The position numbers and the translations under genes were made by a program. Positions 49,810-53,379 of a stretch of 64,000 nucleotides of DNA are shown in pieces (within the stretch, counting starts at the first letter, position 1; each line of letters opens with the position of its first letter). The notes under the pieces are model-generated. The model saw only the letters and a list, made by a program, of their open reading frames with translations, had not been told where the DNA came from and searched no databases. The stretch covers positions 1 to 64,000 of the forward strand of contig CANFVU010000001.1 of NCBI GenBank assembly GCA_947450545.1, given 5' to 3'. This stretch comes from Actinomycetota bacterium. Its GTDB lineage: Bacteria; Actinomycetota; Actinomycetes; Nanopelagicales; Nanopelagicaceae.

Positions 49810-50955
49810 GTGAATTCCCCAGATTCGAAATTTGAATATGCACGCAGATGCTCAATCCTTCACACTCGCCCCGTGCAATTTCCCCGCCTCAAACCAGGTT
49901 TACTCCTGATCTCGCTTCATGCCGATGAGTTTTATATCGGTGAGAGTTCCGAAGGCGTCTACATTCCATCTGATCCTTATCTGGCAATAGCGCGGGCATG
50001 CGATGGGGTGAATTCAACACAAATGATTGCCCAACACTCAAACCTGCCGCATGGCTTAGTGCTCCAGTTTCTCGACGAGCTACGTTCACACAACTTCATT
50101 GAACTTCGCTGCGAACCAATCGCATCTGCAACTCTTGATGAGCTAGCAAATCATTATCGCGAGCGCGTGACGCCTGAACACCAACTCTTCACGTGGCGTA
50201 CAGATACAAGCGATGGCGGGGAGAGCGAAGTTGCGCTTCGAAAAGAGTTCGGCATTTTCATTTTTGGGCAGAACAGGCTTGCCCGCTCGCTACTCGCACA
50301 TCTGCAAGCGAGTGGATTCAGTCAGACAAAAATTATTTCGCCCGTTAGTCGAGGCGCCAAGAGAATCGTGGCTCGTGATATTTGTGGGATCACGGTACGC
50401 CAGAGCGATTTAGGAGTGAAAGAGAGTGATTGCCATAGAGAGATCATTGCTCAATCTCAACTGATTCATGGATCAAACGTTGATAGACCCATCCATGAAT
50501 CCGTAGCTTTAGCGATTTCAACATCAGCTGCTACCTCAGATTACGTTCAACAATGGATTAGCGAGGGCATCCCCCACCTTCAAATATCGCAGCCCACGAC
50601 CCATTCACTGGAAATCGGACCATTAGTTCTGCCTGGCCTAGAAGCGTGCCTCAATTGCGTGCAACTTCATCGCCGTGACTATCTTCCGCCCTTTATCGGT
50701 GCGGTCGCTCTCGATAACCTCATGCACAAGCATGGGCGAGAGCTCACTGCAGCTTCAACCTCTTTTGCTGCAGGCGTTATTACTCCATACATATGTGAAT
50801 TTGCAGCTCGAGGAAGCTCCTCGCTTATAAGCCGCTCTCTCACTATCGACTTGCTTGAACCACTCCACGGAATTACGCATCACCATTGGAATGTGCATCC
50901 TGAATGTGGTTGTGGTTCAAGCAACCCTTTCACCGATCAAGTCAGTATCGATTAA
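49810..50955 (+). CDS. Ocin-ThiF/cyclodehydratase-like protein (Rv3196-like)
   Basis: 381-aa protein resembling the leader-peptide-binding/cyclodehydratase C-protein of azole-peptide (TOMM) systems. The N-terminal part (residues about 20-115) has the winged-helix-like arrangement of a peptide-clamp domain; the C-terminal half is ThiF-like with GPLVLPGLEACLNCVQLHRRD near residue 276 and the end PECGCGSS, giving four Cys for a zinc site. No YcaO partner or oxidase is in the window. The same gene lies next to DUF2342 and whiB7 in M. tuberculosis, so it is a conserved actinobacterial protein, not a RiPP cluster relic. Its last 39 bp overlap the convergent whiB7. Confidence 0.75.
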   Translation: MNSPDSKFEYARRCSILHTRPVQFPRLKPGLLLISLHADEFYIGESSEGVYIPSDPYLAIARACDGVNSTQMIAQHSNLPHGLVLQFLDELRSHNFIELRCEPIASATLDELANHYRERVTPEHQLFTWRTDTSDGGESEVALRKEFGIFIFGQNRLARSLLAHLQASGFSQTKIISPVSRGAKRIVARDICGITVRQSDLGVKESDCHREIIAQSQLIHGSNVDRPIHESVALAISTSAATSDYVQQWISEGIPHLQISQPTTHSLEIGPLVLPGLEACLNCVQLHRRDYLPPFIGAVALDNLMHKHGRELTAASTSFAAGVITPYICEFAARGSSSLISRSLTIDLLEPLHGITHHHWNVHPECGCGSSNPFTDQVSID

Positions 50956-51303
50956 CTCATCTTCACGAATGGCACGTGGGCGTCCAACTCCACGCTTTTG
51001 AGCAACAATGCGACCGTTATCGAAGAGTTGACCGCCCCATACGCCACACGGCTCGTTACGAGAGAGTGCGCCTTCAAGGCATGCTGCCTTCATTGGACAG
51101 GCTGCGCATGCGCTCTTTGCGCGAGCAATCGTTGCCATATCTTCTGAGAAGAAGATTTCTGGATCTGCAGTGTGGCATGGAAGATCGAAAGCTCCCTCTT
51201 CACCTTGCAAACTCGTCACTTCACGCAAACCGATCATCGGTTCACTACTTATTTCGCTATCAGCCCACCCTGGGACTAATAGCTCACTCAGGAGTACTCC
51301 CAT
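50917..51303 (-). CDS. whiB7: WhiB7-like transcription factor
   Basis: 128-aa Wbl protein. Four Cys in LPCHTADPE, ACAACPMKAAC; then the turn GVWGGQLFDNGRIV and an AT-hook-like tail GVGRPRAIRE. WhiB7 of mycobacteria activates intrinsic antibiotic resistance with the principal sigma factor. Differences: the EPW before GVWGG is EPC here, giving a fifth Cys, and the AT hook RGRPR is reduced to GVGRPR. An N-terminal extension of about 40 residues is present. Gene position next to uvrD2 equals that of M. tuberculosis whiB7. AAGGAAG lies eight bases before ATG. A leader with ORF, terminator and antiterminator precedes it. Confidence 0.87.
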   Translation of the reverse strand: MGVLLSELLVPGWADSEISSEPMIGLREVTSLQGEEGAFDLPCHTADPEIFFSEDMATIARAKSACAACPMKAACLEGALSRNEPCGVWGGQLFDNGRIVAQKRGVGRPRAIREDELIDTDLIGERVA

Positions 51304-51380
51304 TTTCTTTACTTCCTTTCATTTCTCTCTTTGTTTATATATTTTTTCTTCTTTGTATTTCTCAGATTAAGAATCTGAAT

Positions 51381-51416
51381 AAAAAAAGGACCGCCATCCG
51401 GTTGGATGAGCGGTCC
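51381..51416 (-). terminator. Intrinsic terminator in the whiB7 leader
   Basis: GGACCGC-T-CATCC-AACC-GGATG-GCGGTCC followed by seven T on the minus strand, about 78 bp before the whiB7 start and 20 bp after the upstream ORF stop. Confidence 0.92.
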
Positions 51417-51462
51417 TGGTTGGGACTTGTATCGGGTTATCCGATAATCCGCCAGGTTCCGC
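51410..51462 (-). promoter_or_regulatory. Antiterminator pairing in the whiB7 leader
   Basis: GCGGAACCTGG (51462-51452, last codons of the upstream ORF) can pair with CCAGGACCGC (51419-51410), which includes the 5' arm of the terminator stem. A 6-bp hairpin TATCGG/CCGATA holding the ORF stop codon lies in the loop. Terminator and antiterminator cannot form together. Confidence 0.65.
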
Positions 51463-51613
51463 CCTGTCCATACTTGTTGGCTGTAAAGGCATAATTGCGA
51501 GCCTTGGCAGCAAACGCGTAAGCAGAGGCGTTTGTATGTGTTGTGGAATGCCAAAGTGACGCAGTGGTTGCTGCGCCTGAAAGTGAAGATTTAACAACTG
51601 TTGTGTTCAACAT
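51437..51613 (-). CDS. whiB7 upstream ORF (58 aa)
   Basis: Two residues short of the ORF track cut. ATG with AAAGG eight bases upstream; peptide MLNTTVVKSSLSGAATTASL... ends YGQGGTWRIIG. The two 70-80-aa ORFs in the track over this area are other frames. Its last codons form one arm of the antiterminator and its stop lies 20 bp before the terminator, so it is best seen as a regulatory upstream ORF of whiB7, as known in mycobacteria. A function of the peptide itself is not excluded. The promoter should lie in 51614-51729; no clear -35/-10 pair was found. Confidence 0.72.
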   Translation of the reverse strand: MLNTTVVKSSLSGAATTASLWHSTTHTNASAYAFAAKARNYAFTANKYGQGGTWRIIG

Positions 51614-51729
51614 CTGTTAATCCTTTCTTTCTTAGCTTTCTTAGCTTTTATCCTTATTTGGACTTCCAGCTATGACTAACTGGTGGAATTGCAAAGGGTA
51701 CGCGAACCCTCAATCGGCGCGCAACTGAA

Positions 51730-53379
51730 TTAAATTGCTGCGAGGAATGGGCTGGGCTTGCCCACGTAACTCAGGTGTACCTGCTTCTTTGCGCGTGTGA
51801 GGCCAACATAAAAGAGGCGTCGCTCCTCCTCCACCTCAGCAGCGCCTCGAATGGTCGAAAGCGGAAGGGTTCCATCGTTAATTCCCACTAAAAAGACGTG
51901 ATCCCACTCAAGACCTTTAGCTGCGTGGAGCGTGGAGAGGACGATGCCCGGAAGAGTCGGTGGGTTATTTTGCTCAGCTCGATCTTCTAATTCACGCAAG
52001 AACTGGCGAAGCGTTGTCGTGCCCGACTCCTGGAGATCGCGAGCGAGCGTGAGAAAAGCTTGCACGTAATCGGCTCTACCAAAGGGAGTCAGCACAGATT
52101 CCAAATCTCGATACCAATCATCGGACGGCAAGACTGAGGCTTGGCGAATAACTTTCATCGCATCGCGCACATCGACGCGATCAAAGAATCGGTCAGAATT
52201 CTTTACTTGAGAAGGGATTCCTCGTTTTGCAAGTTCGCTTTCAAATGCATCGAGTTGGGAATTTGTGCGAGCCAATATTGCAATCTCCAGTTTTGAATCG
52301 GCCCGATACAACTCTTCAATTCTCAATCCAACATCTTTTGCTTCATCCAGCGAGGCGTTAAAAGGCGTCAATGTAAATTGTTCGCCCGACTCGTTCATCG
52401 AAACAAGTTCGTGGTGTTGTGGATCTTGATGAGCAACTGCTTGGCGCAGAACTTTATTTGCTGCGCGAATAATCTCAGGAGTAGAGCGATATCCACGACT
52501 CAAACGCACAACTTTTGCTTGAGGGAAACGATGGGTAAATGAGAGCAAGAATGTTGAGGATGCTCCCGCAAATGAGTAAATGGTCTGTGCTGAATCTCCT
52601 ACGACGCAGATCTCTTCACGATTACCAAGCCACAAATTCAAGAGCCGTTGTTGGAGTGGAGAAACGTCTTGATACTCATCCACAGTGAAGTATCGGTATT
52701 GATCACGAACGCGCTCTCGAACAGCGCGATCTTCTTCCATCATCCCGACAGTAAGGAGAAGAACATCTTCAAAATCAATGACCCGCTCCTGCTTCTTCGT
52801 GGCTTCGTATTGTTCATAGACTTTTGCGATCTCTAAGAGATTCTCTTTATTGCTCTTGCCATTAGGCATCATCAAAGTACGTGACGCTGCTTCTGCTTCC
52901 TCAACATAGAAATGGGGTGCAATCTCCATCGACTTAGCCCACTCGATTTCAGAAGAGATATCTCGAAGGGTCTGCGCTCCTTGGGTGAGATATGTATCGG
53001 TTGCATTGATCGACGCTGCCAAAAGCGGTGCTTTTGTCGTTAACAGGCGTGGAAATTGGCCGCCGAGTGAATGAGGCCAGAAAAACATGAGTTGGCGAAG
53101 TGCTGCTGAGTGAAAAGTTCGAGCTGATGCGTTGGGAACACCTAACTGGCGCAATCGCGCGCGCATCTCACCTGCTGCTCGCGCAGTGAAAGTAAGTGCA
53201 AGGGTTTTGGATGGATCGGCAACACCCGATGCGACAGCGTAAGCAATGCGATGTGTAATGACTCGAGTCTTACCTGTACCAGCGCCTGCTATGACACAAA
53301 CAGGGCCGCGAATAGCGGTGACAGCTTCACGCTGTTCAGCATCAAGCCCTTCGAGAATCTGATCGGGATTGAGAGCCAC
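51730..53379 (-). CDS. uvrD2: ATP-dependent DNA helicase UvrD2-like
   Basis: Superfamily 1A 3'-5' helicase, 549 aa. Motif I AGAGTGKTRVITHR near residue 32, motif Ia TFTARAAGEMRARL, motif II VDEYQDVSPLQ near residue 233, motif III VGDSAQTIYSFAGA, motif V LSTLHAAKGLEWDHVFL and motif VI EEERRLFYVGLTRAKK. It stops soon after motif VI, so the HRDC and tetracysteine C-terminal parts of mycobacterial UvrD2 (about 700 aa) are absent. GTG start four bases downstream of the nudC stop, hence coupled. Position next to whiB7 and nudC supports the name. Confidence 0.9.
   Translation of the reverse strand: MALNPDQILEGLDAEQREAVTAIRGPVCVIAGAGTGKTRVITHRIAYAVASGVADPSKTLALTFTARAAGEMRARLRQLGVPNASARTFHSAALRQLMFFWPHSLGGQFPRLLTTKAPLLAASINATDTYLTQGAQTLRDISSEIEWAKSMEIAPHFYVEEAEAASRTLMMPNGKSNKENLLEIAKVYEQYEATKKQERVIDFEDVLLLTVGMMEEDRAVRERVRDQYRYFTVDEYQDVSPLQQRLLNLWLGNREEICVVGDSAQTIYSFAGASSTFLLSFTHRFPQAKVVRLSRGYRSTPEIIRAANKVLRQAVAHQDPQHHELVSMNESGEQFTLTPFNASLDEAKDVGLRIEELYRADSKLEIAILARTNSQLDAFESELAKRGIPSQVKNSDRFFDRVDVRDAMKVIRQASVLPSDDWYRDLESVLTPFGRADYVQAFLTLARDLQESGTTTLRQFLRELEDRAEQNNPPTLPGIVLSTLHAAKGLEWDHVFLVGINDGTLPLSTIRGAAEVEEERRLFYVGLTRAKKQVHLSYVGKPSPFLAAI

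Follow-up and report, generated by a model that had tools for sequence, protein, structure and literature searches.

The leader of a whiB7 gene was analysed on the minus strand of the window, which comprises the complete DNA stretch of 64,000 nucleotides and originates from an assembly of 1.31 Mb in 41 contigs (88% complete) with three WhiB genes. Along this strand, the end of a UvrD-like gene is followed by a predicted promoter, an upstream open reading frame (uORF), a hairpin around the uORF stop codon, an intrinsic terminator and whiB7 itself (Table 1). The uORF with its ribosome binding site, the terminator with seven T before whiB7 and the placement of the stop codon in a small hairpin inside the antiterminator loop had been reported in a preliminary description of the locus and were found as reported. 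The pairing of the last uORF codons with the segment holding the terminator 5′ arm, also proposed there, is present as well, and the best duplex is longer than the one first described. By computation, a terminator is located between the uORF and whiB7, and an antiterminator is available that is mutually exclusive with it.

Table 1. Features of the whiB7 leader and the adjacent genes in the window.
Feature	Position	Strand	Description
UvrD-like helicase gene	51730-53379	-	in the window; its end precedes the promoter
Predicted whiB7 promoter	51695..51733	-	TTAATT 51733-51728, 3 nt, -35 TTGCGC 51724-51719, 18-nt spacer, -10 TACCCT 51700-51695
uORF Shine-Dalgarno AAAGGA	51621..51626	-	from sequence; anti-SD duplex -5.7 kcal/mol
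uORF	51437..51613	-	58 codons, ATG start, C-terminus ...GGTWRIIG-stop
Antiterminator 5′ strand	51446..51471	-	in the last uORF codons; core GCGGAACCTGG 51462-51452; from duplex and covariation; best duplex 51471-51446 with 51428-51402, -27.4 kcal/mol
Stop-codon hairpin	51430..51446	-	TATCGG-ATAAC-CCGATA; UAA 51439-51437 in the loop; nested inside the antiterminator
Antiterminator 3′ strand	51402..51428	-	core CCAGGACCGC 51419-51410, common to the terminator 5′ arm
Intrinsic terminator	51381..51417	-	hairpin 51417-51387, -22.9 kcal/mol; 7-T tract 51387-51381; present in family leaders
whiB7	50917..51303	-	128 aa, WhiB domain, Pfam PF02467 E=2e-15; C-terminal AT-hook-like KRGVGRPR (by eye)

The 3′ part of the leader (81 nt) folds 5.1 sd below dinucleotide shuffles, and the complete leader of 357 nt folds 7.5 sd below shuffles. 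In a simple consensus terminator scan, terminator-like sites were no more common than in shuffled sequences, and the significance of the element therefore rests on conservation and covariation and not on a single-sequence scan. No match at gathering score was obtained for the leader with Rfam release 15, all permissive hits being far below the gathering scores, and the uORF had no match in Pfam and NCBIfam. Elsewhere in the window, a tmRNA match (RF00023) was detected at positions 1-123 on the minus strand, where it runs off the window edge.

For the comparison within the family, which comprises at least 17 genera with genomes of mostly 1-2 Mb, a search for related loci with WhiB7 alone gave 3 loci and was replaced by a whole-genome search. 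WhiB7 matches in 251 family genomes resulted in 140 loci, of which six were cut by contig ends and 134 were usable. In all 134 loci with enough upstream sequence, whiB7 is preceded by a uORF and a terminator; most of these leaders were detected automatically, whereas seven needed manual correction and L124 was interpreted by eye. The Shine-Dalgarno sequence or the start codon is weak or uncertain in a minority of the leaders (e.g., L030, L070, L093, L139). A non-redundant set of 49 leaders, representing 13 genera, shows pairing of the uORF end with the 5′ half of the terminator in every case, at -19 to -34 kcal/mol. A search for additional copies with the covariance model R1 yielded about one strong match per genome, which is located at whiB7 wherever this could be checked; the other matches are weak. 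One genome (G092) carries two WhiB7-like genes (L015 and G092:C1:306534-306899), which share 60% and 58% identity with the query.

Of 124 family leaders, 95 carry the promoter motif TTAATTNNNTTGC-18-TANNNT upstream of the uORF, all 95 with a spacer of 18 nt, and none carries it between the uORF and whiB7. Since it is located upstream of the uORF and never after it, the alternative that whiB7 is transcribed from a start site behind the terminator is removed as far as sequence can do so; neither this arrangement nor a loss of the arms or the uORF was seen across the family leaders. The motif has a single match in the window, and no other exact match occurs anywhere in the genome. An AT-rich box directly before the -35 region is the known layout of WhiB7 binding (PMC3905903), with the box placed 3 nt upstream of the -35 (PMC7157823), and the predicted promoter fits this layout of autoregulation via the WhiB7 AT-hook. 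In the window, the uvrD-like gene ends with a stop codon that overlaps the AT-rich block. The use of the promoter pattern for finding further members of the WhiB7 regulon was dropped, as with two mismatches 26 sites were obtained vs. 39 in a reversed-pattern control. For a site with one mismatch in L216, no gene of at least 100 aa is located downstream on the same strand.

The covariation analysis suggested in the preliminary description showed that, in the relatives, both stems carry compensatory changes and the 3′ end of the uORF is conserved. The two arms change jointly by genus, e.g., CCUGG/CCAGG, CUUGG/CCAAG and CCCGG/CCGGG, and further joint changes are GCGG/CCGC, GGG/CCC and GAGGCC/GGCCUC. 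When arms were swapped between genera, the pairing energy was -18.7 ± 0.8 kcal/mol vs. -23.8 kcal/mol for the own arms, and none of 20000 permutations was as good. Synonymous recoding of the uORF arm, which keeps the peptide, weakens the pairing (mean z -2.2; 35 of 49 leaders at or below 5%), which shows selection on the RNA itself. The covariation score of the alignment A1 is 0.203 vs. 0.125 ± 0.010 in shuffles, of which 0 of 500 reach the observed value; it peaks at the true register and drops upon a one-base shift. The percentage of paired cells is only 76, owing to one-base register ambiguities in the alignment of the 3′ arm.

For the stop-codon hairpin, double-sided changes were observed in all six pairs among the 49 leaders. 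This hairpin and the terminator were recovered by RNAalifold on a MAFFT alignment; the alternative antiterminator was not, as expected for competing folds. The number of double-sided pair types derived from the duplexes did not separate from genus-permuted partners (17/31 vs. 17.7/30.0), whereas the number of duplex pairs did (16.0 vs. 14.0 ± 0.5, maximum 15.4).

By evolutionary criteria, the uORF is translated. Each of the 158 indels found within it between close relatives has a length divisible by three, and the part that is free of RNA pairing shows a pN/pS of 0.47. Residue conservation across genera is largely limited to the last seven codons, where the RNA constraint is located, and upstream of these both sequence and length of the peptide vary between genera. 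A conserved arrest motif was not found across the lineage, residue entropy being high at all codons before -7.

For 49 leaders, the RNA that is free downstream of the ribosome was folded at each codon position, using ribosome-footprint edges known for E. coli. In this model, virtually all antiterminator pairing is prevented before the terminator 3′ arm is made as long as the P site lies within the last eight codons. With the P site at least 14 codons from the stop, 12-16 antiterminator pairs are formed, and about 16 at a distance of at least 16 codons, which places the modelled switch point at codon positions -9 to -14 relative to the stop. The calculation thereby agrees with the earlier proposal, in which the arm is masked by a ribosome that completes the uORF and is freed if the ribosome has stalled upstream or is absent. 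In the model, the equilibrium advantage of the terminator is reduced from 17 to about 6 kcal/mol when the arm is free, and it never vanishes. As even then the terminator keeps a lead of about 6-9 kcal/mol at equilibrium, antitermination would have to be kinetic, with the antiterminator forming first.

Taken together, the element is very probably a uORF-controlled transcription attenuator of the whiB7/wblC type in a small-genome actinobacterium, which probably belongs to the Nanopelagicales (acI). In such a device, RNA polymerase would start at the WhiB7-type promoter upstream of the uORF. A ribosome that promptly reaches the last eight or so codons would cover the antiterminator arm, so that the terminator forms and transcription ends before whiB7. 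If the ribosome is arrested while still more than about 14 codons away from the stop, or if initiation fails, the arm would pair with the terminator 5′ arm once this is made. The resulting antiterminator of about 16 bp would enclose the stop-codon hairpin, the terminator would come too late and whiB7 would be transcribed, after which WhiB7 would activate its own promoter. For the inducing signals, which are known only for relatives, we infer ribosome-targeting antibiotics and amino-acid shortage.

Three other explanations were weighed against the attenuator. The purifying selection on the uORF would also be expected if it encoded a functional small protein, with the terminator acting constitutively, and only partially, between this gene and whiB7. 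This is very unlikely, since both the sequence and the length of the peptide upstream of the last seven codons differ from genus to genus, whereas conservation is concentrated at the part that pairs in the RNA, with arms that covary with the terminator. That there is nothing regulatory, and that a GC-rich hairpin shows chance complementarity, could be argued from the terminator scan, which did not exceed shuffles, but it is contradicted by the covariation, the genus-swap and the synonymous controls and by the presence of the device in every relative examined, and its probability is close to negligible.

The uORF might also encode a specific arrest peptide, comparable to those of erm leaders, with one drug class being sensed through a conserved motif of the nascent chain. 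Some genus-level motifs, KPAFYAAFYAGYEA, KNFAAYG and AWYPAFGE, are found repeatedly at 10-20 codons from the stop, close to where ribosome stalling would release the arm. However, before codon -7 no motif is common to the genera, and whiB7 in relatives responds to many drug classes and to amino-acid starvation (PMC12121999), which makes a single-drug arrest peptide improbable.

The amino acid composition of the family uORFs (L004-L146) was calculated outside the last 14 codons, with the genes of the window as reference. Ala, Ser and Thr together account for 48% vs. 24% in the window's genes (Ala 21%, Thr 14% and Ser 13% vs. 10, 6 and 7%, respectively), and His for 5.7% vs. 2.4%, and Trp is enriched. 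Asp and Glu are reduced to 0.9% vs. 11.2%, with acidic residues absent from 84 of 113 uORFs, Gly to 2.0% vs. 7.2%, and Leu and Ile are threefold depleted. Position-specific base composition alone fails to predict this bias, as 9.8% Pro and 3.8% Asp would be expected and 4.6% and 0.6% were found, respectively.

Glycine counteracts the stalling of ribosomes by chloramphenicol and linezolid. Stalling by these drugs is strongest with a penultimate Ala and weaker with Ser or Thr (PMC8987054). The density of such stalling contexts per codon is 0.46 in the uORFs vs. 0.20 ± 0.08 in the window's proteins, and 0.54 in the window's own uORF. The composition bias would fit this context rule; drug stalling within the whiB7 uORF is described in the literature as untested (PMC12121999). 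Tentatively, the composition may have been selected for easy stalling by peptidyl-transferase drugs and otherwise smooth translation. If so, several drug classes would be sensed via composition and not via a motif, which would answer how one uORF detects so many antibiotics. The bias makes multi-drug sensing by a single uORF directly testable by experiment.

The main rival for the composition bias, and a serious possibility although short of an even chance, is that the uORF senses amino-acid supply, chiefly of alanine together with Thr, Ser and His, with the attenuator unchanged. All four amino acids are enriched compared to the window's genes, and alanine as well as amino-acid starvation induce whiB7 in relatives (PMC11550727, PMC10727445). 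The enrichment is, however, spread over several amino acids, and the near absence of Asp and Glu and the loss of Gly are not explained by supply sensing alone.

The device itself is already known in other actinobacteria. The preliminary description named control of whiB7 by a uORF and early termination, in response to translation-blocking antibiotics, for mycobacteria; the device is reported for whiB7 of both mycobacteria and Streptomyces (PMC10727445, PMC11550727, PMC4128351). According to summaries (PMC10727445, PMC11550727) of the work by Burian & Thompson (2018) and Lee, Lee & Roe (2022) on the whiB7/wblC uORF attenuators of Mycobacterium and Streptomyces, these systems share with the present one the uORF, a Rho-independent terminator, an antiterminator from overlapping uORF and terminator sequence, an autoregulated promoter further upstream whose -35 is preceded by an AT-rich box, and the same downstream gene. 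In contrast, the leaders described here belong to a low-GC streamlined lineage, have their own arm sequences by genus, and end in GTWSxIG-stop instead of the WSPPV-stop of many other families. New here, in comparison with the known system as summarised, are the quantified RNA covariation, the conserved stop-codon hairpin and the uORF composition, besides the strong conservation in a small-genome lineage. An antibiotic-responsive whiB7 switch would thus be retained across a streamlined, probably freshwater lineage, and an alignment-based model with base-pair evidence, including the stop-codon hairpin, is available for an RNA element without an Rfam match.

In the ilvB1 attenuator of M. tuberculosis (PMC13236596), a ribosome at the stop codon likewise masks the antiterminator strand and a stalled ribosome frees it. 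Attenuators of this type contain a few control codons and serve one pathway, whereas no such codons were detected in the present leaders, whose target gene encodes a resistance regulator. In E. coli, the toiL uORF that precedes topAI (PMC12121999) also responds to several ribosome-targeting drug classes, but differs in gene, organism and details of the mechanism.

Furthermore, 59 whiB7 loci of the class were compared, nearly all from other families and two from the own family. In 40 of these, a uORF of 43-118 codons with a strong Shine-Dalgarno sequence ends 6-27 nt before a terminator; the loci failing this strict search include Streptomyces-sized genomes. The uORF, noted as long in the preliminary description, is therefore not special in its length, and a long uORF and its layout are the norm in the class. 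The uORF end of the class leaders pairs with its own terminator at -26.5 kcal/mol vs. -21.9 kcal/mol with others (synonymous z -1.5), and the stop codon tends to be located in a hairpin, z being below -1 for 35 of 40 leaders. Many of these uORFs end in WSPPV-stop, where the distance from Trp to the stop equals that of TWSxIG-stop in the family. The class-wide composition bias is milder, with Thr, Ser and Ala increased and Asp, Glu and Leu decreased.

A uORF stop codon in or beside a small hairpin loop is also present in the class leaders L163, L165, L172, L176 and L208. Outside the class, two WhiB genes of Acidimicrobiia (L035, L036) are preceded by a uORF ending in ..HSQPSRFAT-stop, in which CTCCCAG can pair with CTGGGAG in the following hairpin.
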